A stretch of DNA of 64,000 nt from Lachnospiraceae bacterium (GTDB lineage Bacteria > Bacillota > Clostridia > Lachnospirales > Lachnospiraceae). Position 1 is the first letter of the stretch, and every line of letters starts with the position of its first letter. The notes below the pieces were generated by a model. That model was given only the letters and a program-made list of their open reading frames with translations, was not told the DNA's origin and ran no database searches. Location of the stretch: NCBI GenBank assembly GCA_020860755.1, contig JAJBTQ010000033.1:127036-191035 (forward strand). The letters are read 5' to 3'. Both the position numbers and the translations under genes were made by a program. This document shows, in pieces, positions 1 to 19,175 of this stretch.

Positions 1-993
1 CGCCAGATTCCCGTAGTTGGGGTTGCTGATCCATGCCCGGGCAGAGGCTACCATATCTGTCTTGCCCTCGGCGATGGCGCTCTCACAGAGATCAAAATCA
101 TACAGACCCCCACTGGTCGTGATCAGCATGTTCGGATTGCCCTTCTTGATGATCTCCGCCGTCTTTAAGTTCGGAGCTTTCTCCAGACAGAAAGAAGTCG
201 GATGGGTCGGATCGATCTCTCCGGCACGGATCTGCAGGATCTCCGCACAGCCTTCCAGCATCTTGGACCACTCGATCACATCCTGCGCCGTAAACCCTCC
301 TTGTGGCTCCTCGCCGCTGATCGTGATCTCGATCGGAAATCCCGGTCCGCAATGTTCCTTAATCCTCTGACAGGTCATCTTTAAGAATCTAAGCCGGTTC
401 TCCATAGAGCCGCCGAATTCGTCGGTCCTGAAATTGGTAAGAGGCGAGAGAAAACGCGACGGCAGGAAAAACCGGTAGGACGAATGGATCGTCACCATGT
501 CAAATCCGCACTGTTTTAAGATCAGGGCCTGCTGTGCCATCTCCTCGATGTGCTCTAAGATCATCTCTTTTGACATCTCTTTGCCCGGAGCGGGCGTGAT
601 CCCCGTGCCGTCGGGAACCATCGGCAGGATACCCTCACTGACATCCCATCCCGGCTCGTCGGTCGGGTCTAAGATGAAGCTGATCGCTCCTCCCTCAAAG
701 TGGACCGCCTCGGTCAGATGGGAAAAATAATTAAGAGCCTGCGGCTCGACATATTCAAACTTCGGCGCATGCGCGAACTCCCCGAGCCTGATCTTCGGGA
801 AGGCACAGTTAAACGTCACAACAGCTGCTCCCGCGCGGGCACGGGCCGCCATGAGCTCGATCATCGCCTGAGCCGGATAGGATTCCGGTCCCTGGATAAA
901 ATGCGGGGTACACGGGCTGCAGACCATTCGATTTCGAAGCACCAGATCTCCGACTTTTATCGGGGAGAGAAGATGAGAATATTTTTCTGGCAT
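1..993 (-). CDS. Enoate reductase/Old Yellow Enzyme-family NADH:flavin oxidoreductase, N-terminal part (3' end truncated by window edge)
   Basis: Minus-strand reading starts MPEKYSHLLSPIKVGD.. at 993 and is open to base 1. Strong nucleotide and protein similarity to the complete paralog at 4977-6932. Confidence 0.85.
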   Translation of the reverse strand, partial: MPEKYSHLLSPIKVGDLVLRNRMVCSPCTPHFIQGPESYPAQAMIELMAARARAGAAVVTFNCAFPKIRLGEFAHAPKFEYVEPQALNYFSHLTEAVHFEGGAISFILDPTDEPGWDVSEGILPMVPDGTGITPAPGKEMSKEMILEHIEEMAQQALILKQCGFDMVTIHSSYRFFLPSRFLSPLTNFRTDEFGGSMENRLRFLKMTCQRIKEHCGPGFPIEITISGEEPQGGFTAQDVIEWSKMLEGCAEILQIRAGEIDPTHPTSFCLEKAPNLKTAEIIKKGNPNMLITTSGGLYDFDLCESAIAEGKTDMVASARAWISNPNYGNLA

Positions 994-1071
994 GATACAG
1001 TCCTCCTTATTCAGGTATTGATAAATATATTATATTGTATGAACTGTCTGGTAACAAGAGAGTTTTGATAC

Positions 1072-2316
1072 TTAATGCCAAGCCCAGGTTGTCTCACGCC
1101 ACATCTTCATGTTTTCATGCTTTGCATCTTCCAGCTCCATAGAGGTAGTCATGATATATCCTCCTCCCGGTGCCAGTTCATCCAGCAACCGCTGGGTCTT
1201 GTCATAGACCTCTTCCGGTGTCCCCTGCATTAAAAGGGAGTTATCCATGCCCCCGGCGACACACGCGATTCCGTGAAGCATCTTTTTTGCCCGTGCCAGA
1301 TCCGCGGATTCGAATTGGACAATCGTCTTTTGCGGAGGGAGTTCCATAAGTCGTTCCACTCTGGTATCACAGTTTCCTTCAAAGACAAGGATCGGCGTTA
1401 CATCATTCTCGGCAGCCATCTCAACAATGCGTTTTAACCAGGGCCAGTAAAACTTATCAAAATTTTCAGGACTCATAAACTTATCACCCGGACTTGTGAG
1501 CGGGAGAAACGCAAAACCTCCGGCATTTGCTTTTGCCATCCCCTCCAACTGAGGCCACATCATCTCCCCGTAGAGATCGATGCTCTTTGACAGATCTTCC
1601 GGACTGCTGTACATATCCATGAGCGTATTGACAAATCCCCGGACGGAACAGGCAAAGTTGTCATAGGGGTGTCCCAGCACAACACTGGTGAGCAGAGGGA
1701 ATCCCAGCTCACCGGCAATCCGGATCGCTTCCAGGCTCTTTTGCAGATCCCGTGCCATAAGCTGTGCACTTTCCAGCATACAGGTGAGAGCCTCCGCTAC
1801 TTCCGGATTTGCCATTGCGGCCAGAGCACTGTTGTTGATCTGACACAGGGAAAGGATCGGAAAAGCAGCAAGCCCTTTTAAAGCCCGATACCTGCGCGGC
1901 GCCACCTTAGTTAACAAAAACTGTCCGCAGTTATTGATAAGCTCCGCATATTCTTCCTCCTCCATATAATCAGCATCCAGCTGCTGATGACCGTGATCGT
2001 TCGGAGGATCAGTTTCCGGCTCAGGAAACTCGATAAACATACTTCCCGCCTTTTCCAGGCCGGCAATGGAGGGGTAGACCGGAGGCATCATAAGATCAGG
2101 ATAATATTCCTCCAAGAAAGATCTCACGTTTGGCAGCAAAAGCGAAGGGTCTTCCATGGCTTTTCTGGGGGAGAGTCCATATCCGTTTGCATAAAAATAG
2201 CCAACTACGGGAGTCCAGGGAACATGATCCGGCTCTTTACCCGCGACAGCGTCGCGGACGCGTTGAATACGCTGATCGTAAAGAATTTGTATATTAGTTT
2301 GTTCTATTTGGGCCAT
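1072..2316 (-). CDS. UroD/MtaA-superfamily protein (uroporphyrinogen decarboxylase-like methyltransferase fold), substrate unknown
   Basis: 414 aa ORF with UroD-like pattern (RVRDAVAGKEPDHVPWTP..., SPGDKFMSPENFDKFYWPWLKRIVE..., AGGMDNSLLMQGTPEEVYD). Confidence 0.8.
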   Translation of the reverse strand: MAQIEQTNIQILYDQRIQRVRDAVAGKEPDHVPWTPVVGYFYANGYGLSPRKAMEDPSLLLPNVRSFLEEYYPDLMMPPVYPSIAGLEKAGSMFIEFPEPETDPPNDHGHQQLDADYMEEEEYAELINNCGQFLLTKVAPRRYRALKGLAAFPILSLCQINNSALAAMANPEVAEALTCMLESAQLMARDLQKSLEAIRIAGELGFPLLTSVVLGHPYDNFACSVRGFVNTLMDMYSSPEDLSKSIDLYGEMMWPQLEGMAKANAGGFAFLPLTSPGDKFMSPENFDKFYWPWLKRIVEMAAENDVTPILVFEGNCDTRVERLMELPPQKTIVQFESADLARAKKMLHGIACVAGGMDNSLLMQGTPEEVYDKTQRLLDELAPGGGYIMTTSMELEDAKHENMKMWRETTWAWH

Positions 2317-2371
2317 AAAATAAGATTCTCCTCTTCATTTGCTGCATAAAACTTTGGCTCTCTACTATATT

Positions 2372-3619
2372 TCAAATAACAATTCCGTTCTTCTTCCTTC
2401 TTGCCGCCCGCGCCTTGTTATTAAACAGAATGATACTTAAGGCCAAAGCGCCAAGCAAAATTACAAGACCCACCATCCACATATGAGTGTAGCCATTTTC
2501 TACGTTTGCAGCTGCGTCAATGATCATTCCATAAAAAGTGGATCCGAACAACACCCCAAAATCCATGGTGAACCAAAACGTGCCCGTCGCAAAATCTCCG
2601 CGTTTCGCCGGGGAATCCACCACTGCACAGGCATTTAAGGTCGGTATGGTGAATATATCTCCGACTCCGTACAGGCAGCCCGCTGCGAGAAAGAACACGT
2701 AACTCTGCTTTGCAAAGAACGCAAGGAACACGATGGACATCGCCATACAGACCATACCGGGAATGACCATGACCAATGCGCCGAATCGATCCGCCAGACG
2801 GTTGCATGCCAAACGGGCAATAACCATGGCAACAGCAGCCGCTGTGTAGAAAAACCCAATCTGAGAGGCACTCAGTTCCAAAACCTCCTGTGCATAGATC
2901 GTACCAAAGATAAGGATACAGGAAAATCCCGCCATAAAAATAGTATTTACGATACTGGGGAGAAGGGCGCATTTTTCAAGAAACTTCCAGACACCCTTAT
3001 ACTCTTTATCTGTGTCTATTTCCTGCTTTGCTTCCAGTTTTTTCTGATATTCCGGTTTTTTTTCATAAGTTTCGCCAAGGCTAAGCACTGCCGCGACCAC
3101 ACAAAAGAGCGCACACATAATAAACATTAATGGATAGCCTCCGGCAACTGCCAGATTTAAGCCCAAAAGAGGACCGATCGCATAGGATAAGGTCTGTGGA
3201 ATATTATAGATCCCCATTCCCTCATTCATACGATTGCGTGCTACCACATCCACAACAATAGATGTCATCGTTACCATGATCAAGCCTTTCGACATCCCCT
3301 GCAGCAAACGCATGGTCAGCCCTACCGACGGAACCTCAAAAATACCCATGGCAAACGCGGCAACGGCAAAGACCAAAGTTGCCACTAAAAGGCATGACCT
3401 TTTCCCCCAGACACGGGTCAGCCTCCCTGCAAAAAATGCCATGCATATGGAGCCAATGTTAAAGGTAGAGGAAAGATATCCTCCAAGTGTTTTGGAGCCC
3501 CACACTTCGTTGGCATACGGTGCAAGGTTGCTGTCAAGCATTCGAAAGACCGTATTGATGGCCAGAGCGATAAAACATACTATGATAAAATACCGATTAA
3601 TAAATCTTTCTTTTTCCAT
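2372..3619 (-). CDS. MFS transporter
   Basis: 415 aa, ~12 hydrophobic segments, MFS-like motif AGRLTRVWGKRSCLLVA, NRLADRFGALVMVIPG. Confidence 0.85.
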   Translation of the reverse strand: MEKERFINRYFIIVCFIALAINTVFRMLDSNLAPYANEVWGSKTLGGYLSSTFNIGSICMAFFAGRLTRVWGKRSCLLVATLVFAVAAFAMGIFEVPSVGLTMRLLQGMSKGLIMVTMTSIVVDVVARNRMNEGMGIYNIPQTLSYAIGPLLGLNLAVAGGYPLMFIMCALFCVVAAVLSLGETYEKKPEYQKKLEAKQEIDTDKEYKGVWKFLEKCALLPSIVNTIFMAGFSCILIFGTIYAQEVLELSASQIGFFYTAAAVAMVIARLACNRLADRFGALVMVIPGMVCMAMSIVFLAFFAKQSYVFFLAAGCLYGVGDIFTIPTLNACAVVDSPAKRGDFATGTFWFTMDFGVLFGSTFYGMIIDAAANVENGYTHMWMVGLVILLGALALSIILFNNKARAARRKKNGIVI

Positions 3620-3708
3620 ACATATTAATGTCTAAAGATGTTAATGTTGTCTTCAAAAACTAACCCTGTGTCACTCATATGTATTTCTTTTTCTGGGTTT
3701 TGTGGTTC

Positions 3709-4830
3709 TTATCCATTCTGCGGATGCGTATTTAAGAAAATATGTGCAGCATCGCTCATTGCCTTCACATTTTCCGGTTTGGCATCCGTTGGAATATCAC
3801 AGCCAGTGGCGATGATGCAGCCCCAGGGACCGATATCTTCCAGAAGTTTTGTTACATACTCTGCCACTTCCTTCGAGGTGCCGTAGGTCATTAGCTCACA
3901 GGGCACATCACCCAAAATGCACACATTGGGTCCCAGAACCTCCCGACATTTTCGGATATCCGTTTTGGAATCCAGCGCCATAACAAATGTTTTCTCCTTC
4001 AGCCGCCGAAATTTATTCAGGTTCAGAGTCCAGTTCGAATCCAGATGAAAGAACGGAATCACGTTAAGCTCAATACAGAGGTCATAATAGGCCTTAAAAG
4101 ATGGCCACACAAACTCATCAAACATATTCGGAGATACCAGATCCGGTCCGCTCCTCCAACCGCCGATGATCGCACCGGCAGGATGTGTCATCAGCATTTG
4201 CTGACGATACGCCTCCAGATTGGATGCCAAGACGAGATCAGTAATCTCATGCACCAGCTCCGGCTCATCCATCAGGTCATCCATGAAAAAGCATTCCAGA
4301 GAACGGCCTCCGCAGAAATATTCAAAGGGAGCCACCATCATAAGATCGGCAATACAGGGGATTCCGGCTTCGTGGAATTTTTCGTATGCCTTCGGATTCG
4401 CTGCAAAAAAGGGGAGCAGGTTTTCCCAGTTGTTATCGCACTTCTCTGCGATAAACTTCTTTTGCCAGGCATCCCAGCCGATCTCTTTAATTTCCTCGTA
4501 ATCCTCAAACTTCATATTTTCGGACTCTACAACCTGCCACACGTCGTCATCACCCAGATCTACGCCCGGAATCGCCGTCTTGGACAGCCACTGCGTGCCG
4601 AGCAGATAGGGAGAAAAAAGAACGTTTTGTGTTGCATCCGCATCGATTGCGGTCAGTCCAGCAATGTTTGCTTCACAGGCCTTGTCAAAATCAGCAACAT
4701 AGTCCTTCATCAAGATGCCCTGACATCGTGCAAAATAAGCACTTCCGCAGGGTGCCACCGGAACACGGTCTACAGGCTCACAGCGCACAGCCTTATCAAT
4801 TCGATCTCTGTTGACTTCATATTTATTCAC
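3709..4830 (-). CDS. UroD/MtaA-superfamily protein
   Basis: 373 aa; RIDKAVRCEPVDRVPVAP start and GCDIPTDAKPENVKAM C-terminal motif typical of the UroD methyltransferase family. Confidence 0.85.
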   Translation of the reverse strand: MNKYEVNRDRIDKAVRCEPVDRVPVAPCGSAYFARCQGILMKDYVADFDKACEANIAGLTAIDADATQNVLFSPYLLGTQWLSKTAIPGVDLGDDDVWQVVESENMKFEDYEEIKEIGWDAWQKKFIAEKCDNNWENLLPFFAANPKAYEKFHEAGIPCIADLMMVAPFEYFCGGRSLECFFMDDLMDEPELVHEITDLVLASNLEAYRQQMLMTHPAGAIIGGWRSGPDLVSPNMFDEFVWPSFKAYYDLCIELNVIPFFHLDSNWTLNLNKFRRLKEKTFVMALDSKTDIRKCREVLGPNVCILGDVPCELMTYGTSKEVAEYVTKLLEDIGPWGCIIATGCDIPTDAKPENVKAMSDAAHIFLNTHPQNG

Positions 4831-4915
4831 AATCTAATTACCCCCTACAATTATTAACTCCAAACCAATTGATATATCGTGATCACAGGGTTGAAAGCTA
4901 TCTAGATTGATATAA

Positions 4916-4947
4916 TTGTCCCCATGCCTGTTAAGACACGGGGACAA
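4916..4947 (-). terminator. Possible terminator/hairpin downstream of the OYE2 gene
   Basis: TTGTCCCC...GGGGACAA stem just after the 4977 stop (minus strand); weak T-tract. Confidence 0.4.
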
Positions 4948-4976
4948 ACAATAAGAGAAAAGAATTCCTTACAAAA

Positions 4977-6932
4977 TTACAGTTTTCTTCCGGCCGCATA
5001 TCCGGTGCGCATCGCCTGCTGAACGCTGGCTGCCTTGACGCAGTCTCCGATGACACTCGTGTATGTGCCTTTGCCGTAGTACGCCATCGCCTCTTCCGAC
5101 TGAGGCTTCGCTCCTGTCGCAAGCACGATGCTCCCGGCTTTCACGAAGTTCTCGTTCCCATCCTCGTCTACATAGTACACGCCGTCCTTGGTTACTTTCG
5201 TGCATGTTGCCTTTACAGCGGATGAGAAGTTCGGCTCCGCCGTCCAGTAATCTTCCACCATGCTGCGGTAGTGTACCGGACATGCCTCTGCACAGAGCTT
5301 CTCCAGCATCTCGATCACGAACGCCTTACGTCCCGACTCCGCGATCCAGATCCCAGTCTCGGTCCCGATCTCTCCGCCGCCGATGATGACTACATCATCT
5401 GCCAGCTCATCGATACGGTTGTTTACAAAGATATCTGAGGCAAACACATAGTCCACGTCCTCGAGGCCTTCGATCGGCGGTGCTTCCTCTTTTGCTCCGA
5501 TGGCCACGATCACATGGTCGTATCCCTGGCCTTCCAGCATCTCCGGGGTAGCCTCGGTGTTTAGCTTGATCTCGATGTTCTTCTCCTCTTGTGTCTTGCG
5601 GATCATGTAGTGGTTGAAATCACGCACGGTCCACTTAAACTCTGCGTAGTCCGCATGCTGCAAAAGGCCTCCCAGATGATCCGTCTTCTCAAACAGTGTC
5701 ACCTGATGTCCCCGCTTCGCAGCGATCTGAGCCGCCTCCATGCCGGCCGGGCCGCCGCCGATAACAGCGATCTTCTTTACGCCCTCAGGCTCTTTGACTG
5801 CAGTGGCCAGACGCGGTGTGATGCTCCCCCATTCCGGGTTTACGGAGCAGACACTGTTATAGGTACATCCCGCTGAAGGAATATGGCACTTGTTGCAACG
5901 CAGGCACGGTACCAGATCCTCCGGACGGTCCTCATAGATCAGGTTCCCGTAGTTGCCGTTGCTGATCCATGCACGGGCAGATGCGATGAAGTCCGCCTTG
6001 CCCTCTGCGATCACGCTCTCACACAGATCAAAGTCATAAAGTCCGGCGATCGCTGCGATCAGCATATTCGGGTTCCCCTTCTTGATGGTCTCCGCCATAT
6101 GAAGGTTCGGAGCCACTTCCTTGCAGAACGAGGTCGGATGGTTCGGATCGATCTTGCCGGCACGGATCTGTAAGATATCCGCACAATCCTCAAGCATCTT
6201 TGACCACTCGATCACATCCTCCATCGTAAAGCCGCCTTCCGGCTCCTCGCCGCTGATCGTGATCTCGATCGGGAATCCCGGACCACATAACTCTTTGATC
6301 CTCTCACAGGTCATCTTAAGCGGTTTCAGCCTGTTTTCCAAAGAACCGCCGAACTCGTCGGTACGGATGTTCGTAAGGGGCGACAGGAACCTGGACAGCA
6401 GGAAGAAGCGGTAAGACGAATGGATCGTCACCATGTCAAATCCACACTGCTTGACAAGATATGCCTGCTGCGCCATCTCTTCGATGTGCTCTAAGACCAT
6501 CTCTACCGGCATCTCTTTTCCAGTAGGAAGGTCGATCCCCGCTCCGTCCGGTACGGTCGGAGCGATGCCTGTGCTGGCATCCCAGCCGGGCATGTCCGTA
6601 GGGTCCATGATGAAGCTGATCGCTCCCCCTTCAAAGTGGACCGCCTCGGTCAGATGGGAAAAATAGTTCAGTGTGCGCGGTTCATTGTACTCAAACTTTC
6701 CCGCATGCGCGGTCTCTAAGTTCCTCGATTTGGGAAGCGCACAGTTAAAGGTTACGACAGCAGCTCCGGCTCTCGCACGGGCCGCAAAATGGTCGATCAT
6801 CGCCTGAGACGGATACGGCTCCGGGCCCTGCACAAAGTGAGGGGTCGCCGGGCTGCAGATCAGGCGGTTCCGAAGCACCACATCTCCCACCTTGATCGGG
6901 GAGAGCAGGTGTGAATACTTTTCTGATGACAT
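4977..6932 (-). CDS. Enoate reductase/2,4-dienoyl-CoA reductase-like OYE-family flavoprotein with 4Fe-4S site and C-terminal NAD(P)/FAD Rossmann domain
   Basis: 651 aa; OYE TIM-barrel N-terminus, Cys cluster CLRCNKCHIPSAGCTYNSVCSVNP, KKIAVIGGGPAGMEAAQIAAKRGHQVTLFE, VVIIGGGEIGTETG. Confidence 0.9.
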   Translation of the reverse strand: MSSEKYSHLLSPIKVGDVVLRNRLICSPATPHFVQGPEPYPSQAMIDHFAARARAGAAVVTFNCALPKSRNLETAHAGKFEYNEPRTLNYFSHLTEAVHFEGGAISFIMDPTDMPGWDASTGIAPTVPDGAGIDLPTGKEMPVEMVLEHIEEMAQQAYLVKQCGFDMVTIHSSYRFFLLSRFLSPLTNIRTDEFGGSLENRLKPLKMTCERIKELCGPGFPIEITISGEEPEGGFTMEDVIEWSKMLEDCADILQIRAGKIDPNHPTSFCKEVAPNLHMAETIKKGNPNMLIAAIAGLYDFDLCESVIAEGKADFIASARAWISNGNYGNLIYEDRPEDLVPCLRCNKCHIPSAGCTYNSVCSVNPEWGSITPRLATAVKEPEGVKKIAVIGGGPAGMEAAQIAAKRGHQVTLFEKTDHLGGLLQHADYAEFKWTVRDFNHYMIRKTQEEKNIEIKLNTEATPEMLEGQGYDHVIVAIGAKEEAPPIEGLEDVDYVFASDIFVNNRIDELADDVVIIGGGEIGTETGIWIAESGRKAFVIEMLEKLCAEACPVHYRSMVEDYWTAEPNFSSAVKATCTKVTKDGVYYVDEDGNENFVKAGSIVLATGAKPQSEEAMAYYGKGTYTSVIGDCVKAASVQQAMRTGYAAGRKL

Positions 6933-6970
6933 AATATCTCCTCCTTTGACTAATTAACTCCGTATATAAA

Positions 6971-8302
6971 CTATTTTACGACAACCGGTGCCTTGCCAGG
7001 CTCTTTTTCCAAACGCTCATTAGTAAAGAAGACTAATACAGCACCTACGAAGGCCAAGATGCCAAAGAGTGTATATGCGCCACGTGTGGAACCGGTAGCA
7101 TTCATGAACAGTGCTAATGTCACGCCCGCGCAGGCACTGATCACACGGATGATCGGGAAGATAAAAGTCCACATACGGGAGAATGATTCCGATCCATAGA
7201 CACTGACTGCGTGCGACATCGGTATGTTGTTGATTCCACCGTTGAAAAATCCAAGCAATCCTACAAACAAGATATTCGTAAGCCAGTTAAACGGAAATGC
7301 TCCGCCGCACAGACAGGCAATACCAAACACAAGGCAGACAATAATTCCCGTAAGCCGGACTCCTATCCTCTGATCCATGATGCCGGTGACAAAGCTGCCT
7401 GCAAAACCGATCGCAGCAAAGATCATTAATAATCCCATGGCCATAGTAGGCGCCATGCCCATCGAGATTTCATAAGGGATCAACTGCATTACGACACCCG
7501 GCGTCACTAAATAAAGCAGGCCATATCCGATCGAGATCAGCCAGAAGTTTTTATTTTTAAATGCTTCCGCCCTGGTCCATACCGGTTCATGCGACTCTTT
7601 GCTCTTTTCAATCATTTCCAACGCGATTGGATCACTATCCCCGTTATCCGGTAATTTCCCTATTTTTTCCGGGCTATGAGGGATAAAGAAACAGATCACG
7701 CCAAGTCCAAGCGTAATAAGTCCGATAATAAGCAATGCAAACGGCATGCTTACTCTGGCAATCCCCTGGTTTAAGATGGGCACACATAAAATTGTAGAAA
7801 ACGCAGCTCCGCAAGTTGCCCATCCAAGTACAAATCCCTTTTTCGTTGGGAAAAATTTACCAAACAATTCTCCCAGACACCCCATACCAACGAAAGATGC
7901 GCAGGAAAGGTTGATTGCCCAGACAATGATAAATACGACATAGTTGGAAATATGACCCAGCAGGATGACCATGATTCCGCTAAGTACCATCAATGCCCCC
8001 ATGAGAAAACGTGTTCCGATTCTTGTCATCAAAAAACCGTAACCTAAAACAATAAATACCTGGATAATTGCCGCTATGGTTACGCCACTCAAAATAGCGG
8101 CTTCTGCCACGCCAATGTTTGCAGCCAATCCTCCGGACAAAGCATTCATTGCAATCGCATCCCATAAGGGACCGCCCATCATCATGACACAGGCGCCGAA
8201 AATAATCAGCAGCCATCCATAACGTCCTATGTGTGCTCTTTTTTTAGTTTTTTCAGTTTTTTCAGTTTCTGTAGTTTCCATAAAACCCACTTCTCCTTTC
8301 AT
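6971..8302 (-). CDS. MFS transporter, OFA (oxalate/formate antiporter)-like
   Basis: 443 aa polytopic protein; MTRIGTRFLMGALMVLSGIMVILLG, GWATCGAAFSTILCVPILN. Confidence 0.8.
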   Translation of the reverse strand: MKGEVGFMETTETEKTEKTKKRAHIGRYGWLLIIFGACVMMMGGPLWDAIAMNALSGGLAANIGVAEAAILSGVTIAAIIQVFIVLGYGFLMTRIGTRFLMGALMVLSGIMVILLGHISNYVVFIIVWAINLSCASFVGMGCLGELFGKFFPTKKGFVLGWATCGAAFSTILCVPILNQGIARVSMPFALLIIGLITLGLGVICFFIPHSPEKIGKLPDNGDSDPIALEMIEKSKESHEPVWTRAEAFKNKNFWLISIGYGLLYLVTPGVVMQLIPYEISMGMAPTMAMGLLMIFAAIGFAGSFVTGIMDQRIGVRLTGIIVCLVFGIACLCGGAFPFNWLTNILFVGLLGFFNGGINNIPMSHAVSVYGSESFSRMWTFIFPIIRVISACAGVTLALFMNATGSTRGAYTLFGILAFVGAVLVFFTNERLEKEPGKAPVVVK

Positions 8303-8424
8303 AATATTTGATATTTATAGTATATAAAATATACGTCTAAATTAGAAATTAATATTCTGACTAGCACGGGCATAGTAGCTATTCCAAAATCTTATAACAG
8401 GTGCCAAATACTTCAAGGTCTTGG

Positions 8425-9342
8425 TTAACGGGGGAGTTCCTGAAGCAAAAGATCGATCAGATGATTGTCATTTTGATCACTCCATGTCAAAACCATCGCT
8501 AAAGAAGATAATTCCCCGGCCTGCTCAAGGCTAAGATACGTAATGCCCGGATGTTGAAAAGATTGCGTATATCCTTTTGGTATAAGATGGAATCCTTCTC
8601 CCAACTGTGTCCTCATAAAAATCTCGTCCCAGTTATCACAGCTTAAGATCTGAGGCTTTAAGCCAAAATAACCCAGACAGCCGAGGCGGTCACTCAACAG
8701 TGTAGGCGCATGTTTCACATCTAAAAAAACCAGCTGATTCAGTCTTGCGAGATCTCCCTCATCGGAAAGCTCACAATCCGAATATTCTTCCGGAACAGCC
8801 AGCATCCACGAATCTTTCTGTATGATTCGTGATGCATTAGACTTGATCTCCAGCTGGTGAAGTTCGACAGACGGAATGAACGTAATGATGATGTCTCCGG
8901 GCGGCTTACGCAGAGTCTGCGCCAGATTTTGCAGGTTGATGTATTTAAACTCAAGCGTGATCAACGGATATCTCTCTTTGAGCGCCCTCACTGCATCCAT
9001 GAGCGGACTTCGCGCAAAAAATATAAACGGCAGATGCCGGTCAAACGCAATAGACAATACCCCGGAATTCAGCCGTTCTGCATTCAAGGCTTTTTTCATT
9101 TTGTCTACTGTCTGATTCGTTTTCGTGAGCAGTTCCTGAGCCTCTGGTAAAAATAATTTCCCCATTTCCGTCAGTTCAACGGTTCGGCTGTCTCGTATGA
9201 ACAGTCTGACACCCAGATAGGACTCCAAGGCCGCGATCTGCTTGCTCAAAGCCGGCTGTGTAATATACAGGGAATCCGCTGCCCTGCTGAAATTCAAATA
9301 ATCTGCTAAAGCCAGAAAAGCTTCGATCCATTTATAATCCAT
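8425..9342 (-). CDS. LysR-family transcriptional regulator
   Basis: MDYKWIEAFLALADYLNFSRAADSLYITQPALSKQIAALESYLGVRLFIRDSRTVELTEMG: N-terminal LysR wHTH. Start placed at the MDYKW Met rather than the longer ORF start (9477). Confidence 0.92.
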   Translation of the reverse strand: MDYKWIEAFLALADYLNFSRAADSLYITQPALSKQIAALESYLGVRLFIRDSRTVELTEMGKLFLPEAQELLTKTNQTVDKMKKALNAERLNSGVLSIAFDRHLPFIFFARSPLMDAVRALKERYPLITLEFKYINLQNLAQTLRKPPGDIIITFIPSVELHQLEIKSNASRIIQKDSWMLAVPEEYSDCELSDEGDLARLNQLVFLDVKHAPTLLSDRLGCLGYFGLKPQILSCDNWDEIFMRTQLGEGFHLIPKGYTQSFQHPGITYLSLEQAGELSSLAMVLTWSDQNDNHLIDLLLQELPR

Positions 9343-9424
9343 AATACACCTCTTTAATTTTATAAAGACGTACTCTTTGACACAATCACCAATGACCTCG
9401 AGCAAATTTTGTTGTAGGAGTATT

Positions 9425-10420
9425 TTAGACGCGAATTCCAAGTTTTTCCTCTGCATTTTGATAAAACAGTTTTTCACGCTCCTTCCTGCTTAAGGGAAGT
9501 TCATCATGAAATTCCATTACCTCTGTTGGATTCTCATAGGGATAGTCGGTACCAAAACAGATCCGGTCTATTCCAAGCACATTCTTGGTGCACTTAAAGG
9601 CTTCTATTGATAGGTTGCCACTTGTCGTTACCATGATGTTATGCTCAAAGTAATATCTCAGTGTATGCTTTGCACGGACGAACGGATCCAGCTCCACCTG
9701 AACACGATTATCCATTCGGGCCATAAGAAATGGGATTGCCTCTCCCAGATGTCCAAGTACCAGCCGTGTATTCGGAATCTCATCCAACATTCCGGACAAC
9801 ATGAGCTTTGTTACCGTCGTCATGGTATCCTGTGTAAAACCCAGCATAGGCGCAGCTACCATAAAACCGCAGTTTCGAGTACGTCTGTCATCCGGCACTT
9901 GTGGATGTAAGTATACATAGATTCCCAGTTCCGCAGCCTTCTGAAAGATAGGCCAATACCGCTCCTCATCCGGAGCTGTATCCCCAAAGTTTGAATGTAC
10001 ATGCCACCCGACAAAACCATAGCCTTTCACACATCTTTCCAGTTCCCGACAGGCAGCATCTGTATCGTTGACTGGAAGAACCGCACTTCCCAGATATAAT
10101 CCCGAATACTGTTTTGTCAGCTCATAAAGCGTTTCATTTGTCTTTGCACATACCTCGATACTCTTTTTTACTTCCAACTGTTCCGGTCCCGGAGAACTGC
10201 TGAGCACAGCAGTGGTGATGCCGTTTGCTTCCATTTGCTGTTTCCGTTGCTCCGCTACCTCCAGCAGTAAGGGATAGACTCTACCCGGCGGCATTTTAAT
10301 CGTCTCTGTCCAATATAAAGCATTTTCTTCCTCCGAAAAATATGGTGGTGTGGTTCTTGCTATTAATGCCTCCCTCACACAGGCATCATAAAAATGATTT
10401 TCAAGATCAATTTTTTTCAT
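9425..10420 (-). CDS. Amidohydrolase_2/ACMSD-family metal-dependent hydrolase or decarboxylase (gamma-resorcylate decarboxylase-like)
   Basis: Start MKKIDLENHFYD: ExH instead of HxH, with later HP (YVYLHPQVP), LVLGHLGEAIPFLMARMDNR and FGTDYPYE motifs. Confidence 0.85.
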   Translation of the reverse strand: MKKIDLENHFYDACVREALIARTTPPYFSEEENALYWTETIKMPPGRVYPLLLEVAEQRKQQMEANGITTAVLSSSPGPEQLEVKKSIEVCAKTNETLYELTKQYSGLYLGSAVLPVNDTDAACRELERCVKGYGFVGWHVHSNFGDTAPDEERYWPIFQKAAELGIYVYLHPQVPDDRRTRNCGFMVAAPMLGFTQDTMTTVTKLMLSGMLDEIPNTRLVLGHLGEAIPFLMARMDNRVQVELDPFVRAKHTLRYYFEHNIMVTTSGNLSIEAFKCTKNVLGIDRICFGTDYPYENPTEVMEFHDELPLSRKEREKLFYQNAEEKLGIRV

Positions 10421-10433
10421 AGCAGTATCCTTT

Positions 10434-11261
10434 CTAAAGCAAATTCTTTTCCTGTGCAAACGCATAAATCTCCGGCAACAGCTCAGACATGCGGCTCCAC
10501 TCCCACGCGTTATGGCAGGCCATAAGGCGCGTCCGTTCCAGAAGCGACACGGGGTGGTCACATTTCTCTAAAATAATCTCCCCATTAATATACTGCGCTC
10601 CCATCCAGCAGCGTACTTTAAATTCTATTCCGTCTCCATAACGGCGTATGTAATTCACCATGGTCAGGTACGGCGGATTATCCTTGTCACTTCCGTCCTC
10701 TTTTAAGATGTGCATGTTGCCGCCAAAGAACCGGACATAATCCGGATCAAGCGCCTTCGGATCCTCGATCCCAAATGTATCGAGTCCGATAGGCGGTCCT
10801 GCCTGTCTGTCCAGTCCGGCCACACCCCATCCCAGATCCTCGCAGGCGACACTTCCGATGGAAGAGTTCACATGAAAGCCGGGCAGCCAGATCATATAGT
10901 GAACCGGATTTTTGGGATACCAGGTAAACCACCAGGCGAGCATCTCCGGAGTGACCCGCGGCATCTTTATATTGACCGCGGAAAACCCGCACCCTTCCGG
11001 GCGAAGGCAGTATCCGTTCTCACACTCCAGTTCCTGTGTCGTAAAAAGTTTTTTACATTCCGCGGGCGAGATTGTCTTCGCAGAATCCACTTCATGACCC
11101 GGCAAAAGCGCCATGATATTTTCCTCAGAGGGAAGCTGGATTGGCAGATCATAAAACAACGCAAATGGAGTGGAGGCCTTTTCCTCTTCTGTCAGAGGCT
11201 TTTTTTCCATCAAGCCGTAAACACCGAAATTTTCTTCGGTGAGCAGGTCTGTATAACTCAT
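10434..11261 (-). CDS. PhlG/phloretin-hydrolase-like C-C hydrolase (DAPG hydrolase family)
   Basis: 275 aa; MPRVTPEMLAWWFTWYPKNPVHYMIWLPGFHV and C-terminal LMACHNAWEWSRM (H-x3-E). Paralog at 13170-14030. Confidence 0.75.
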   Translation of the reverse strand: MSYTDLLTEENFGVYGLMEKKPLTEEEKASTPFALFYDLPIQLPSEENIMALLPGHEVDSAKTISPAECKKLFTTQELECENGYCLRPEGCGFSAVNIKMPRVTPEMLAWWFTWYPKNPVHYMIWLPGFHVNSSIGSVACEDLGWGVAGLDRQAGPPIGLDTFGIEDPKALDPDYVRFFGGNMHILKEDGSDKDNPPYLTMVNYIRRYGDGIEFKVRCWMGAQYINGEIILEKCDHPVSLLERTRLMACHNAWEWSRMSELLPEIYAFAQEKNLL

Positions 11262-11295
11262 TTTAATTTCCTCCTATTTTTTGTATTTGGCATCA

Positions 11296-11323
11296 TACAA
11301 TCGCTATTCGGCATTAGATTGTA
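11296..11323. promoter_or_regulatory. Inverted repeat upstream of the PhlG-like gene
   Basis: TACAATC-N14-GATTGTA perfect 7-bp arms, 35-62 nt upstream of the start codon. Confidence 0.45.
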
Positions 11324-11390
11324 ATGGATATACCATTGGTACTGTATTTATTATAGTCCATCCCGTCTATTCCTGCATTCTCAGAAAAAG

Positions 11391-11422
11391 AAAAAAGCCC
11401 TCATAATTACGAGGGCTTTTTC
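11391..11422 (-). terminator. Rho-independent terminator (potentially bidirectional) at the 3' end of the PucR gene
   Basis: AAAAAAGCCCTC-ATAATTAC-GAGGGCTTTTT. Confidence 0.8.
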
Positions 11423-11438
11423 ACATATTAAGAATCTT

Positions 11439-13004
11439 TTAACCATTTTCCCGCATCTTTTCCTCAAATTCCAGAAGTCTCAGGCTCCATACCATATCAA
11501 AGCACTGTTCACTGTCGTTGGCGTCAAGTCCATACCGATCTCTGACTTTGCCGAGGTGATAGGTGACATTGCTTCGGTGCATGAACAGTTTCTCTGCCGT
11601 TCGTCCCACCTCACAATTTGCTTCCCGGTAAGCATTCAAAAAATCAATGTATTTCATATTGCGATCTTCGTCGTCCTGAATGATCTTTTTTATCGCAGGA
11701 TGGATCCATGCTTCAGCCGGAGCTGTATCAAGGCACATCAGCATCATCAGCTCACCTCTGCAGTCTTCCACCCGGATCACGTTATCATAAACCGGCTCCA
11801 TAAGGCCATTCTTATAAAGCCAATTTGTCTTATCTGTCTGGGATCGTTCATAGGGAAGTTGGGTGATTTCTTTAAAATTTTCGCTGACGATCGCGACACA
11901 ATCAAACTGTTTTAGGATCGACCGCATCATTCGAATCTTGTCTTCCCGCTCCTGATCTTCATCCTCCTCTTGCAGGTGCACCATTACATAGGGCTGTTCC
12001 TCGTAGTGGAAAAAATAGCTCTCTCGGATCACGCTTTTCATCGTAGATGACAGATACCCCAGCGGAATCCTGATGTCCTCACGAAAACAGAGGTTCATCA
12101 GTACATAATGTCTTCCTTCCGGGATATCGATATAGCGAAAACGTACGGAAATATCATCCAGTTCTGTCAATGTTCCATTTAAAACATCCGTTATAAAATA
12201 TTCATACAGATAATCCTGCTTCAGAGAGAGCGATCCGCTCATCTTTTCCAGAGACAATTGTATTTTGTCACACAAAATTTCAAAGAGACCGCTGTGTGCT
12301 CCAATTTGTTCAAATTCATAATAAATCGAAAAAACATAACCAAGAATCTCCGTGGGGGATTTCATAAGTTTTATTTTGGTATAGGTGCCGGACTTCTGAT
12401 CCTCTGCGTTTATAAGCGCCTCCCCCTCCTGTTCCAGATCTTCAAAAATATGATGGCTGGATAAATTGGAAAAAATGTCCTGGATAATATATCCCCTGTC
12501 AATAATATCGTGAAACCACGGATTGTTCTCTATTCTCTCATTGATATGACCAATCAGCTTCATGGACGGGTCATAGATAAGAATCGGTGTTTCCATCATA
12601 TCGGAAGAAAGGTTCAGGATCTGCTGCAGGGGTTCCCCCTTTGCCAGCGCAAGATCTACATTCTGTTCCCACTTAGAGAGGCTGTCAAACGCAGTACAAA
12701 ATGCATTAAAGACATATGAGATATCTTCGGCTGCAGTGGGGATCCGGCAACAATCTCCGCCCGCCCCATCTGCCTCATCCGACACAGAAATGATCCACAT
12801 TGTTTCCCTAAAAGCCGGATCACAGAAGGGGTGTTTTCCTGCAGCAAGGTAGAGATATCCCTCCTGCATCTGATCCTCGGACAGCGGCATCATACGGATG
12901 CCCTTTACTTCATCGTCCGGCGCATCCAATACAGCACCATCTCCAGCAAACTCCGGATTTTGTCTGTAAAACATATTCATCAAAGCCTGCCTTGTGATCG
13001 ACAT
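11439..13004 (-). CDS. PucR/CdaR-type transcriptional regulator
   Basis: 521 aa; C-terminal PucR HTH: LNAYREANCEVGRTAEKLFMHRSNVTYHLGKVRDRYGLD. Confidence 0.85.
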   Translation of the reverse strand: MSITRQALMNMFYRQNPEFAGDGAVLDAPDDEVKGIRMMPLSEDQMQEGYLYLAAGKHPFCDPAFRETMWIISVSDEADGAGGDCCRIPTAAEDISYVFNAFCTAFDSLSKWEQNVDLALAKGEPLQQILNLSSDMMETPILIYDPSMKLIGHINERIENNPWFHDIIDRGYIIQDIFSNLSSHHIFEDLEQEGEALINAEDQKSGTYTKIKLMKSPTEILGYVFSIYYEFEQIGAHSGLFEILCDKIQLSLEKMSGSLSLKQDYLYEYFITDVLNGTLTELDDISVRFRYIDIPEGRHYVLMNLCFREDIRIPLGYLSSTMKSVIRESYFFHYEEQPYVMVHLQEEDEDQEREDKIRMMRSILKQFDCVAIVSENFKEITQLPYERSQTDKTNWLYKNGLMEPVYDNVIRVEDCRGELMMLMCLDTAPAEAWIHPAIKKIIQDDEDRNMKYIDFLNAYREANCEVGRTAEKLFMHRSNVTYHLGKVRDRYGLDANDSEQCFDMVWSLRLLEFEEKMRENG

Positions 13005-13100
13005 GTTGCGTCCCCTTTTGCATCATTCGGAAAATATTTTTATGATTATAACATGCCTGTCTCAAAAATAAAATCTTTTGGTAGATTTATTTTTAAAATA

Positions 13101-13139
13101 TAAAAAAAGTCTTCAGACAGATTTTCTCTGTCTGAAGAC
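13101..13139 (-). terminator. Rho-independent terminator of the 13170-14030 gene
   Basis: GTCTTCAGACAG-AGAAAAT-CTGTCTGAAGAC followed by a T-run on the minus strand. Confidence 0.88.
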
Positions 13140-13169
13140 CTCTTGATAATGCTTTCTATATAGTTATTC

Positions 13170-14030
13170 TTACGCTCTTGGATCGGGCGCCTCGAGACCG
13201 TTTTCCTTCGCGAACTTATAGATTGCCGGCAAAAGCGTCGCCATACGGTTCCACTCCCAGGCATTGTGACAGGCCAGCAAGCGAACCCGCTCAAGCAGCG
13301 GTACAGGACTCTCTGTCGGATCTAAGATATACTCTCCATTCTGGTAAGCCACCCCGATCCAGGTGCGCACACGCCACTCCAGGCCGGTCCCTTTCCTGCG
13401 CACATAATTTACCATGGACAGATAGGCTTTCGGCTCAAAATTCGTAGGATCATCTTCAGGTGAAATGATCGGGGTCGCGCCTCCGAAAAAGCGAATGAAA
13501 TCCGGATCGTTCCCGGTCGGATCCGTGATCCCAAAATCTTCCATCCTATACATAAACCCGGCACCCAAAAGCGGCAGCTCAGGGCCCCAGCCAAGGTCTT
13601 CTGTCGAGGCATGTCCCCGTTCCAACATCCGCATTTCAATATGCATATCTGGCAGCCATGTCTTATAGTGAACTGTGCTGGACAGATACCAAGGGAACCA
13701 AAATTGCAGCATTTCCGGCTGCACCTCCGGCATATCGATCTTGACCGCCGAAAAGCCAAATCCCTGCGGAAGTACACAATATCCGTTTTCACACTCCAGA
13801 TAGCCGGGTGCGAACAGCTTGCCGCACTCTTCCGGCAGGATCGCAATGGAAGGATCTATCTCATTGCCAGGCATCAGCGCCTTTATCGTCTCCTCCGAGG
13901 GAAGATTGATCGGCAGATCAAAAAACTGTGAGTAAGGAGTGCTCTGCCGCTCTTCTTCCGTCAGCGTTGTACTCGGTATATTCGCGTAAGGTCCGAAATT
14001 TTCTACTGTGATCAATTCAGTGTAACTCAT
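13170..14030 (-). CDS. PhlG/phloretin-hydrolase-like C-C hydrolase, second paralog
   Basis: 286 aa; MPEVQPEMLQFWFPWYLSSTVHYKTWLPDMH, LLACHNAWEWNRM; collinear with the 10434-11261 product. Confidence 0.75.
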   Translation of the reverse strand: MSYTELITVENFGPYANIPSTTLTEEERQSTPYSQFFDLPINLPSEETIKALMPGNEIDPSIAILPEECGKLFAPGYLECENGYCVLPQGFGFSAVKIDMPEVQPEMLQFWFPWYLSSTVHYKTWLPDMHIEMRMLERGHASTEDLGWGPELPLLGAGFMYRMEDFGITDPTGNDPDFIRFFGGATPIISPEDDPTNFEPKAYLSMVNYVRRKGTGLEWRVRTWIGVAYQNGEYILDPTESPVPLLERVRLLACHNAWEWNRMATLLPAIYKFAKENGLEAPDPRA

Positions 14031-14222
14031 GCTTTTTGTCTTCTCCTTTCAATACAATTTTCGTTTGCCTCTTGCTTTATCGAATCACCTTTAAAAATAC
14101 TAAATTTTATTATATGCTATCTGCCGTTTTCTTTCATTCGCTTTCAGAGAATTTTGGAGAGGTAATTATCTGCAAATTTTCTTTTTTTGACAAACACACC
14201 CCCTGCTGCAAAAAAGAAAAAT

Positions 14223-14270
14223 AAAAAAGAACTGCTGCCCGGCGCTCATACCGGACAGCAGCTCTTTCAT
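14223..14270 (-). terminator. Rho-independent terminator downstream of the ferredoxin gene
   Basis: Minus strand GAGCTGCTGTCCGG...CCGGGCAGCAGTTCTTTTTT. Confidence 0.8.
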
Positions 14271-14309
14271 ACATACTATTTTTCTTTTAGATTTTGGTAA
14301 AGAAATGGA

Positions 14310-14498
14310 TCAAATGATCTTGATCGCAGCGACGGCGCACTCTGCTACCGCCTGTTTTGCCTCCTCTTCAAGCTCCGGGGTAATCTCGTCAACTAAGACG
14401 TCAAAGCAATGATCCTCATAGTTTCTCTTGAACAGATTCGGGAACATATCCTCACAAATCCCACATCTGATGCAGTAATCCGCAATTTCTATCTTCAT
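14310..14498 (-). CDS. Small [4Fe-4S]-type ferredoxin
   Basis: 62 aa; YCIRCGICEDMFP (CxxCxxC) plus a distal Cys (AECAVAAIKI). Confidence 0.85.
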   Translation of the reverse strand: MKIEIADYCIRCGICEDMFPNLFKRNYEDHCFDVLVDEITPELEEEAKQAVAECAVAAIKII

Positions 14499-14500
14499 AA

Positions 14501-16060
14501 TTATGCCTCTCCTTTCACATATGCAGCCGCAGACTCACCTGCAACCATTCCTGTCGACATCGATCCATATACCGTACCGCCTACGTTGATCGGCGGATCT
14601 CCCATCATGCTGGCAAGTGCAATGTCGCCGCCCGCATAAAGGCCCTCGATCGGGTAGTCATTTTTGTCGACGACATTTGCGTTCTCATCAATGGCAAGAC
14701 CGCCGAGCGTGTCGTAACCGCCGGCAAAAATGCGGAAGCAGTAAATGTGTCCGCTCTCCTCCTTAACCGGTTTGATATACTTCGGATTTGTCTTAAACTC
14801 TTCGTCGTATCCTGTCTCAGCAGCTTTGTTATATTTTTCCAGAGTCTTCTTGAGGCCGTCCTCGTCGATGCCCATGTATTCGCAGACTTCGTGGATCGTG
14901 TCAAAGTGGCACATATGCTTATTGCCCTTCGCGATCGCCTCGTCCATCTGTCCGCGGATATTTTCGATCGTAACACCGCGGAAGATAAAGTACACATAAT
15001 CGTCTTCCACATGATCACTCATCCCCTGTGCCGTGTCCTCATCGAAGATCATGTAGCAGCACATATTCGGGCAGTTTAATGCGAGAGAGCTCGAAATAGA
15101 CGAATGGTTGCTGGCCATTTCCTCATTGATAAAGCGCCGTCCCAGCTCATTGACGCGCAGATACGGCTGCTCTGTAATTACCTTGATCTGATTGGCCGGG
15201 ATCCAGCGGATATTGGGGCCGAGTCCAACGCCGGGATTCGGCACCTGCGGATCGCCGCCTAAGCCAAAACCGGTCTTTTTCCCGCCTATCTCCCAGACCG
15301 CCTTATGTCCGTCTCCGTCCTGACAGCTGTCTAAGAACGTGATGATTACCTGTCCGCCATCTTTGTAGCAATCTTCAAATTTTGTGTTGACAACGCCTTC
15401 CTCTTTCATCATCTCGAGATTACCGCTGAAGCCGCCGGAAGCAACGATCAGGGCCTTGCAGGAAATGTCGATCTCTTCTCCGTCCTTATCGTAAGCGATG
15501 GCTCCGGTCACCTTTCCGCTGTTGTCATCACGGATGATCTTCTTGATCGGTGTCGAGAAATAAAACTCTACTCCCTGCTTTTTCAGCATATTGTAGAGTC
15601 TAAGCATTGCCAGCGAAAAAGCGTGACCTGCCTGCCCGCGGCCGTTTAAGAAATAGATATCCCCGACATCCAGCCCGTTGGCATGTCCCATTGTGTAACC
15701 GCGCTGATTGCCGTAATCAGACGGCTCACGGTTGACGACCATCGGTGCTTCAATTTTCAGCTGGTTGAGGAACAGATCCGGGAATTCCGCAGTCTCCTTG
15801 ATTGCCTTGCTGACCAGCCCCAGATTAGCGGAATAGTTCGAATGGCGAGCCAACACGTCAAACGCGCTCTTCTGCGCTTCCGGAGTGTCCGGTGTGGAAC
15901 AAAAGCACATGGGGCAGTTGGAGACTGCTCCGCCTTGCGCCGGATATTTTTCAAATATCGCCACGTTTGTCACACCGGCGTTTACCAACTTGTATGCCGC
16001 GCCCATTCCGGCAACACCGCTGCCCATGATCGCGACATCTACGCTTACTTCTTTACTCAT
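14501..16060 (-). CDS. FAD_binding_2-family flavoprotein (fumarate reductase/3-ketosteroid dehydrogenase-like), soluble
   Basis: MSKEVSVDVAIMGSGVAGMGAAYKLVNAGVTNVAIFEK start at 16060; YDTLGGLAIDENANVVD...IEGLYAGGDIA; no signal peptide or cytochrome domain evident. Confidence 0.88.
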   Translation of the reverse strand: MSKEVSVDVAIMGSGVAGMGAAYKLVNAGVTNVAIFEKYPAQGGAVSNCPMCFCSTPDTPEAQKSAFDVLARHSNYSANLGLVSKAIKETAEFPDLFLNQLKIEAPMVVNREPSDYGNQRGYTMGHANGLDVGDIYFLNGRGQAGHAFSLAMLRLYNMLKKQGVEFYFSTPIKKIIRDDNSGKVTGAIAYDKDGEEIDISCKALIVASGGFSGNLEMMKEEGVVNTKFEDCYKDGGQVIITFLDSCQDGDGHKAVWEIGGKKTGFGLGGDPQVPNPGVGLGPNIRWIPANQIKVITEQPYLRVNELGRRFINEEMASNHSSISSSLALNCPNMCCYMIFDEDTAQGMSDHVEDDYVYFIFRGVTIENIRGQMDEAIAKGNKHMCHFDTIHEVCEYMGIDEDGLKKTLEKYNKAAETGYDEEFKTNPKYIKPVKEESGHIYCFRIFAGGYDTLGGLAIDENANVVDKNDYPIEGLYAGGDIALASMMGDPPINVGGTVYGSMSTGMVAGESAAAYVKGEA

Positions 16061-16160
16061 AAAACCTTTTCTCCTTTCGTTTTTCACCTGAATCAGGTTA
16101 TACTTCCAACCTTTGAGAAAGAGCATACCAAAAATGAGGGAAAGTAACAGTGGCGAAACG

Positions 16161-16205
16161 GTGCAAAATACACAATTTTTCCTTGCGGAAAAGTGCACTT
16201 TGCAC
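16161..16205. promoter_or_regulatory. Two operator-like palindromes in the 5' region of the FAD flavoprotein gene
   Basis: GTGCA-AAA-TACAC (16161-16173) and GTGCA-CTT-TGCAC (16193-16205), centres 32 bp apart. Confidence 0.45.
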
Positions 16206-16268
16206 ACCACGCGGGAAAGACAAGGTAATCGCAGTGATTAAAAGGAATTTAAGAATAGAATAATCGTG

Positions 16269-17810: not shown

Positions 17811-17840
17811 ATTGTCCCGCTTCTTTCACAAACTGTCTGT

Positions 17841-19175
17841 TTACCAGTATACCAACGGAGTAGCGGAAACCCAATATTCCTCAACCTCTCTGGCAAGCTC
17901 CTCCCGGGATATGTTGCCGGCCAGATAGTCCTGCATGATCCCGCCCACGATATTTTGATGATCATCCGGAGCGTAGTCAAAGGTCGGAATCAGGTTCCCT
18001 GCATCGGCGTAGACCTTTACGTCATTGGCCAGCGGATTCGAACTGACGAGTGTATTATTCTGGAACGGGGATACAAGGCTGCAGGTTTCGGTCACAAAGC
18101 TCTGTCCCTCATCCGAGTAGACCAGCCAATTAAGAAAATCGAGCGCAGCCTCGCGCTGCTCATCCGTGGTGTACTCGCTGCCGTCTACAATGATATATTG
18201 CGTCACGCCGCCGACGAGCTTGCCGGTATAATCATCCTCGACATCCTGCGGGATTGGGATTAAACCCATATTTTCCGTGTACTCATCATAGGTAATGTAA
18301 TCAGCCCACTCCCAGGTGCCGCCGAACTTGAAGGCCGTCTCTCCTCCCGCGATCGCCTGAAGGACTTCCGTGTCACTCGCTTTTATCGGACTTTCTATAA
18401 AATAATTATAATCCATCAGGATATCAAAGGTATCGATGAGCGAGTTGAACTTCTCATCGTCCTCCAGATTCACATCACCATTGTAAAGATCTTGGATAAA
18501 CTCATCCGTGTCGTCACGCTCCTCATAGACGTGCTGGAAAAAATGATATCCCAGGGACCAGTCCGCTTTCTGGACCACTGTCGGGTATTCCATCCCGTCC
18601 GAGACAAGTTCGTCTAACAGGGTGATAAAGTCTTCCAGGTAGTTAATGTCAGACGGATCAAATATCTCACCGGTTGTTTCTTCGATCGCATCCGCGTTAT
18701 ATATAATACCGCGTCCCTCAATGCAGAAGGGAAATCCGATCAGCTTGTCATCCTCATACAAGGCATATTCCGTCTCGGAGGCCCAGTCCTGATTGCTTAA
18801 GTCCAGCCCGTATTCCGCGCCGATCCCATGGACGTCTGATGGATTGACCATAGCGATCGTGTAGGGATTTCCTGTCGCATATCTTGTGCTGAGGTAGGAT
18901 GTCACCGCTGTCGAGGGACAATCAGCCACAATCTTCACCCCGTACTCCTCCTCATAGGCAGCCATGGCATCCTGAATCTGTTCCAGGATATCATCTTTGT
19001 TTACAAAGAATGTGATCGTAATTTCGTCAGCTGAAGATGCCGTCTCAGCGGATTCATCCGCCGAGGTATCCGCGCCGGCAGATTCACTTTCACCGGCACT
19101 GCTCCCGCAGGATGCCAGAGAAAGAGTCAGGGCGGATGCCAAAATGACTGTTAGGATCTTTTTTGCATGCTTCAT
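17841..19175 (-). CDS. ABC-type extracellular solute-binding lipoprotein (family 1, sugar-type)
   Basis: Lipobox LTLSLASCGSS; ITFFVNKDDILEQIQDAMAAYEEEYGVKI; no adjacent permease or ATPase. Confidence 0.88.
   Translation of the reverse strand: MKHAKKILTVILASALTLSLASCGSSAGESESAGADTSADESAETASSADEITITFFVNKDDILEQIQDAMAAYEEEYGVKIVADCPSTAVTSYLSTRYATGNPYTIAMVNPSDVHGIGAEYGLDLSNQDWASETEYALYEDDKLIGFPFCIEGRGIIYNADAIEETTGEIFDPSDINYLEDFITLLDELVSDGMEYPTVVQKADWSLGYHFFQHVYEERDDTDEFIQDLYNGDVNLEDDEKFNSLIDTFDILMDYNYFIESPIKASDTEVLQAIAGGETAFKFGGTWEWADYITYDEYTENMGLIPIPQDVEDDYTGKLVGGVTQYIIVDGSEYTTDEQREAALDFLNWLVYSDEGQSFVTETCSLVSPFQNNTLVSSNPLANDVKVYADAGNLIPTFDYAPDDHQNIVGGIMQDYLAGNISREELAREVEEYWVSATPLVYW

Follow-up and report, generated by a model that had tools for sequence, protein, structure and literature searches.

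The DNA analyzed here (hereafter "the window") is a 64,000-nucleotide stretch of a Lachnospiraceae genome (assembly GCA_020860755.1, contig JAJBTQ010000033.1, positions 127,036 to 191,035 of the forward strand). It belongs to contig C18 of one incomplete metagenome-assembled genome (MAG; G000, 1.72 Mb, 79% complete), with about a fifth of the host genome missing. At its left end lies a gene island that includes two divergent members of the superfamily of phloretin hydrolase and 2,4-diacetylphloroglucinol (DAPG) hydrolase (PhlG). For positions 1 to 16060, the initial annotation had named two old yellow enzyme (OYE) proteins, two PhlG-like proteins, an amidohydrolase, a flavin adenine dinucleotide (FAD) reductase with a ferredoxin, two UroD-superfamily proteins, two major facilitator superfamily (MFS) transporters, and LysR and PucR regulators. 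All of these are present, all on the minus strand, and with family matches far beyond chance. The limits of the island had to be redrawn, however, since OYE1 runs off the left edge and a second PucR gene, beyond 16060, belongs with the FAD-ferredoxin module. The refined gene starts are 10420 for the amidohydrolase and 16060 for the FAD protein. From right to left, the features are:

16269 to 17810, minus strand: PucR2, PucR-type regulator of the FAD-ferredoxin module (PF13556, E 1e-11)
14501 to 16060, minus strand: FAD-dependent reductase of the vinylphenol/fumarate reductase type (PF00890, FAD_binding_2, E 5e-33)
14310 to 14498, minus strand: ferredoxin of 62 amino acids, single cluster, conserved cysteines, 2 base pairs (bp) from the FAD gene
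14225 to 14268, minus strand: terminator-like hairpin of 19 pairs, 3' of the ferredoxin gene
13170 to 14030, minus strand: PhlG2, predicted divergent C-C hydrolase (PF18089, E 7e-27; metal ligands kept)
13104 to 13144, minus strand: terminator-like hairpin 3' of PhlG2
11439 to 13004, minus strand: PucR1 regulator (PF13556, PucR HTH_30, E 3e-11)
11391 to 11422, minus strand: terminator-like hairpin 3' of PucR1
10434 to 11261, minus strand: PhlG1, predicted divergent C-C hydrolase (PF18089, E 2.6e-31; metal ligands; structural model)
9425 to 10420, minus strand: amidohydrolase, probable hydroxybenzoate decarboxylase (PF04909, Amidohydro_2, E 4e-37; match to 2dvt; motifs)
8425 to 9342, minus strand: LysR regulator (PF00126, LysR HTH, E 6e-22)
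6971 to 8302, minus strand: MFS2 transporter (PF07690, E 2e-21)
4977 to 6932, minus strand: OYE2, long OYE, 2-enoate-reductase-like (PF00724, E 8e-32, plus PF07992; best PDB match 6qkg)
3709 to 4830, minus strand: UroD2, probable corrinoid-dependent methyltransferase (PF01208, E 1e-26; CdmB 9rui, E 7e-13)
2372 to 3619, minus strand: MFS1 transporter (PF07690, E 4e-46)
1072 to 2316, minus strand: UroD1, probable corrinoid-dependent methyltransferase (PF01208, E 5e-18; CdmB 9rui, E 3e-25)
1 to 993, minus strand: OYE1, N-terminal 331 amino acids in the window (PF00724, E 3e-35; 82% identical to OYE2)

The genes for the ferredoxin, PhlG2, and PucR1 are each followed by a strong terminator-like hairpin, which implies several transcripts. 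The likely ones are FAD-ferredoxin, PhlG2, PucR1, and PhlG1-amidohydrolase (13 bp apart), the last possibly continuing onward. Promoter-like matches are no commoner than in shuffled sequence (26 versus 25.4), and a search for Rfam riboswitches or other RNAs found none besides tRNAs.

By hidden Markov model (HMM) match, metal ligands, and predicted fold, PhlG1 and PhlG2 are members of the DAPG/phloretin hydrolase superfamily, as had first been proposed. They score 109 and 95 bits, respectively, against PF18089 (DAPG_hydrolase), whose Pfam gathering score is 22.7. The four metal ligands (His, Glu, His, and Glu) are kept in an alignment of 21 relatives and correspond to H130, E141, H250, and E254 of PhlG1. 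These positions were read by alignment to the solved enzymes 3hwp and 5xe5, with the numbering checked on the alignment, starting from what we take to be the metal-binding residues of 3hwp. The AlphaFold model of PhlG1 (pLDDT 90.5) has 5xey, 5xe5, and 3hwp as its best PDB matches, and all six matches with E <0.001 are to phloretin hydrolase or PhlG, with TM scores of 0.67-0.74 (0.74 for a phloretin hydrolase). The two proteins are thus like the phloretin and DAPG hydrolases (E. ramulus Phy, M. abscessus 5xe5, and P. fluorescens PhlG 3hwp) in fold, ligands, and overall length. However, they differ from the characterized PF18089 enzymes in having a shorter stretch from the first His ligand to the first Glu ligand, and they carry Cys or Thr where PhlG has Tyr229. 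They also fall outside the supported clade of the two solved enzymes: in a tree whose root is arbitrary and which includes one long row, a branch with 98/95 support splits a 40-row set including 5xe5 and 3hwp from PhlG1, PhlG2, and six divergent rows. Both miss the NCBIfam PhlG equivalog cut-off (41 and 40 bits versus 600), and they share 23-30% identity with PF18089 proteins from E. ramulus-type genomes. A search of the GTDB genomes with PhlG1 as sole query gave no matches, and the PF18089 relatives there were recovered by using an alignment of typical paralogues; a plasmid search returned only distant Pantoea proteins.

Eubacterium ramulus is a model flavonoid degrader, and the host seems to be an uncultured congener of it. 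This we infer from chalcone isomerase: the E. ramulus enzyme has copies of 99% identity in three genomes of the GTDB genus to which the host belongs. Most other copies in the genus are 80-88% identical to it, and the enzyme was found in 16 of 19 congeners, the collection compared having one genome per species. The query was the E. ramulus sequence, checked against the PDB, where it matches the chalcone isomerase entries 4d06/3zph (all 283 residues, E 7e-202), the crystallized enzyme having E. ramulus as its source organism (PMC9694015). Such a host invites the route that the initial annotation had in mind, in which OYE would convert a chalcone or flavanone by reduction into a dihydrochalcone (phloretin, for example) for cleavage by PhlG, as in E. 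ramulus. The island and its host do share with the reductive flavonoid pathway of that species (chalcone isomerase, Fcr/enoate reductase, and Phy) the genus, the families for reduction and C-C cleavage, and a phloroglucinol pathway gene. Yet while the PhlGs of the island are outside the characterized clade, typical Phy-like paralogues occur elsewhere in the same genome, one of them (contig C25) with up to 49% identity to the E. ramulus-type PF18089 proteins. The OYEs are not orthologous to those of the E. ramulus-type genomes (30-35% identity to those of G159, G636, and G650, which replaced sequences labeled Phy and Fcr of E. ramulus in our comparisons), nor are they more than 40% identical to any other OYE of the genus. 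No chalcone isomerase was found in the MAG, though a part of that genome is missing, and the extra decarboxylase, methyltransferase-like, and FAD-ferredoxin genes are unlike the E. ramulus pathway. A direct chalcone-to-phloretin route therefore appears unlikely here.

Flavoproteins recur in the neighborhood of the PhlG genes. The FAD protein is nearest to the vinylphenol, urocanate, and fumarate reductases, and its best NCBIfam match is VprA, at 169 bits versus an equivalog cut-off of 600. It shares the FAD_binding_2 architecture of VprA and the flavocytochrome c-type reductases, but instead of a fused haem domain it has a dedicated ferredoxin, whose cluster cysteines are invariant in nine relatives. 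Five congeners have orthologues of it (74-80% identity), and other congeners have more distant homologues. At the congener loci, where gene neighborhoods were taken from mechanical open reading frame calls, the gene for this small ferredoxin usually comes directly after the FAD gene, and a PucR2-type regulator accompanies them; close homologues of PucR2 adjoin the FAD orthologues (E 9e-172 to 3e-178). A PhlG gene is found within ~6 kb of the FAD-ferredoxin pair at 7 of 11 loci (G000, G638, G639:C40, G646, G643:C109, G159, and G640). At the remaining four none was seen, the contig being short or broken in three of those cases. The genes in G638 run FabK/NMO, ferredoxin, FRD-type flavoprotein, PhlG, a second kind of amidohydrolase, FAD gene, and ferredoxin, with the PucR gene reversed; the PhlG gene there (L094 6633-7471) is split by a frameshift, which is either an assembly error or a pseudogene. 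PhlG also exists fused to an FRD/AprA-type flavoprotein in proteins of 813-817 amino acids (L089 7426-9867 in G261, as well as L161, L162, L167, and L172, one of which four may be the same genome), and this natural fusion supports cooperation between the flavoprotein and PhlG. PhlG proteins of these bacteria are therefore repeatedly partnered with flavoprotein reductases. In addition, a cluster of a FabK/NMO-type reductase, a Phy-like PhlG, a two-cluster ferredoxin, and an FRD-type flavoprotein is shared by E. ramulus-type genomes, E. oxidoreducens, and congeners (L246 5322-9117 in G159, L129, L126, and L239).

The nature of the FAD protein could also suit a detoxification or electron disposal system, in which the FAD-ferredoxin pair and OYE would reduce phenolic enones as an electron sink and PhlG would remove toxic acyl-phenols, with no growth on the carbon. 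Such a system would agree with the similarity to vinylphenol, urocanate, and fumarate reductases, and at two loci distant FAD-ferredoxin homologues are followed by NuoE/F/G-like genes (L237 2000-7930 and L241 1106-4826), which suggests a possible NADH-driven electron supply to the reductase. However, almost all genomes of the genus carry genes for phloroglucinol fermentation, and transporters, an amidohydrolase, and methyltransferase-like proteins are encoded in the island as well; we regard mere detoxification as very improbable.

The amidohydrolase is probably a decarboxylase of di- or trihydroxybenzoates. After the uncharacterized 3nur, its closest structures are the gamma-resorcylate decarboxylases (2dvt, E 1.8e-43; 3s4t) and 5-carboxyvanillate decarboxylases, and it has the metal-ligand motifs of the gamma-resorcylate decarboxylase family (ExH, H, H, and D, present as ENH/ExHF, LHP, GHLGE, and GTDYP). 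Close homologues (48-65% identity) were seen at four loci, all in the host genus. On contig C25 of the MAG, a 63% identical paralogue lies between two PhlG genes, so that the amidohydrolase-PhlG linkage is found at two loci in the host as well as in G638 and G650.

Uroporphyrinogen decarboxylase was rejected as an identity for UroD1 and UroD2, which score 28-30 bits where the hemE cut-off is 303. The nearest solved structure to both is the corrinoid-dependent methyltransferase CdmB (9rui), and they are probably corrinoid methyltransferases rather than decarboxylases. Together with the O-demethylases MtvB, OdmB, VdmB, and MtoB, CdmB belongs to the UroD superfamily, but it does not itself use methoxylated aromatics (PMC13222342). 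UroD relatives adjoin B12-binding proteins in Alkalibacter and Alkalibaculum, and at L159 a 35% identical UroD2 homologue is beside such a protein. Unlike in corrinoid O-demethylase systems, the single corrinoid protein and the RACo-type activase seen in the MAG are encoded on contig C16. O-demethylation is the best reading of the two proteins, with haloalkanes or other methyl donors also possible. A 79% identical UroD2 paralogue occurs on contig C13 (L022 9644-10804) beside a LysR gene where the contig ends, which suggests that part of the left block is present twice, and on contig C29 another URO-D gene lies ~60 bp from a PhlG gene.

OYE1 has a full length of 650 amino acids (G000:C18 from 126079). 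Since OYE1 and OYE2 are 82% identical and their genes form a 79% nucleotide repeat, they appear to be the products of a recent duplication. The right block (PucR2-FAD-ferredoxin, PhlG2, PucR1, and PhlG1-amidohydrolase) and the left block (LysR-MFS2-OYE2-UroD2-MFS1-UroD1-OYE1) could be independent neighbors, the former acting on phenolic ketones and the latter on something unrelated, for example a different enone or a methylated compound. Indeed, the FAD-ferredoxin-PucR2 module is found again in congeners where the left block is absent, the best congener homologues of OYE2 are in varied settings, mostly without an adjoining PhlG, and the OYEs resemble BaiCD and bilirubin reductase. On the other hand, PhlG neighbors recur for both left-block families. 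PhlG adjoins OYE genes elsewhere (L082, L143, and L123). An OYE comes 21 bp after a short-form PhlG in G644, and outside the genus, in Flavonifractor (L143), an OYE is just upstream of PhlG. PhlG-UroD neighbors occur at G000:C29, L084, L144, and L159. Two separate loci are the main rival reading, if a rather less likely one, and the proposed link between the blocks is moderate; for OYE and UroD it is weaker than for the FAD-ferredoxin pair because congeners have no close orthologous island. The proteins of 694-706 amino acids beside PhlG in L095, L115, L119, and L144 were rejected as OYEs, being NuoG/glutamate-synthase-like electron-transfer proteins.

A fate for the products of cleavage can be proposed from the rest of the genome. 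A 69% identical orthologue of dihydrophloroglucinol cyclohydrolase, an enzyme of the phloroglucinol pathway of Clostridium scatologenes (PMC10470551), is present on contig C10 of the MAG, and orthologues occur in 18 of the 20 genomes of the genus. The query was L095 3059-3994, a predicted cyclohydrolase from its PF04199 match and its position within a cluster ordered as in PMC10470551. Full clusters, with short-chain dehydrogenase/reductase (SDR), dehydrogenase, cyclase, and cleavage-enzyme genes, are seen in congeners; the cyclohydrolase gene of the MAG, on C10, lies away from the island.

The gene content, family membership, metal ligands, predicted fold, conserved neighborhoods, and cyclohydrolase gene are directly established, and from them we infer the reactions and the substrate. 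With about even confidence, we read the island as catabolic, for acylated and probably methoxylated di- or trihydroxybenzenes, and as feeding phloroglucinol fermentation. The MFS transporters would take up the phenolic substrate, and UroD1 and UroD2 would O-demethylate it with the corrinoid protein encoded elsewhere in the genome. The OYEs and the ferredoxin-fed FAD reductase would reduce C=C bonds of the side chain, PhlG1 and PhlG2 would hydrolyze the aryl-ketone C-C bond in a metal-dependent reaction, and the amidohydrolase would remove a ring carboxylate. The freed phloroglucinol would then enter the reductase/cyclohydrolase fermentation pathway, with PucR1, PucR2, and LysR presumably sensing phenolics. 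Several observations count against such a system: the region is not a single operon, the island has no corrinoid or activase gene, OYE and UroD lack a conserved counterpart island in the congeners, and no phloroglucinol reductase was located in the host MAG. This catabolic reading and its three rivals overlap in part. The related gut aromatic pathway with decarboxylase and UroD partners that was first suggested survives in its enzyme families, its congener host, and the phloroglucinol pathway of the genus, but a direct E. ramulus-like route is not supported, and its UroD partners are better read as methyltransferases.

PF18089 is also expanded in the host and its relatives. The MAG has about ten such genes over eight contigs (nine strong and one weak), and matches occur in 19 of the 20 genomes of the genus, many with several. 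In a sample of the family they occur in 22 of 299 genomes, or 20 of 297 once two congeners are removed, with at most seven matches in any genome outside the genus. The difference between the genus and the other family genomes (Fisher p 8e-19) is descriptive only, the genomes being related. Directly upstream of another PhlG paralogue of the MAG, on contig C17, is an AtuA-family gene (PF07287; L018 2368-4941). In the open-access literature searched, no prior report of this expansion was found. Few phloretin hydrolases have been characterized, and schemes of gut flavonoid breakdown usually show one per species. Some genomes of this genus hold about ten PF18089 genes, several of them next to dedicated flavoprotein-ferredoxin pairs, which points to gut cleavage of a broader set of plant acyl-phenols and supplies named candidate genes. 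More tentatively, the island may encode a new gut pathway combining a divergent PhlG subfamily, a ferredoxin-fed flavoprotein, a resorcylate-type decarboxylase, and corrinoid methyltransferases. It would act on acylated phenolics not known to be fermented by gut bacteria, with a PhlG toolkit in the genus of up to about ten per species; candidate substrates would be acylphloroglucinols, acylresorcinols, or methoxylated relatives of chalcones. A koala/eucalypt link by way of formylated phloroglucinols is speculation.

Upstream of PucR2 lies a lone gene for an ABC-transporter solute-binding protein (17841-19175); neither a permease gene nor an ATPase gene was seen next to it. The GC content of the island is 43-52% (window positions 1-18000) versus 52-57% across most of the rest (20000-64000), which fits an acquired or accessory segment.

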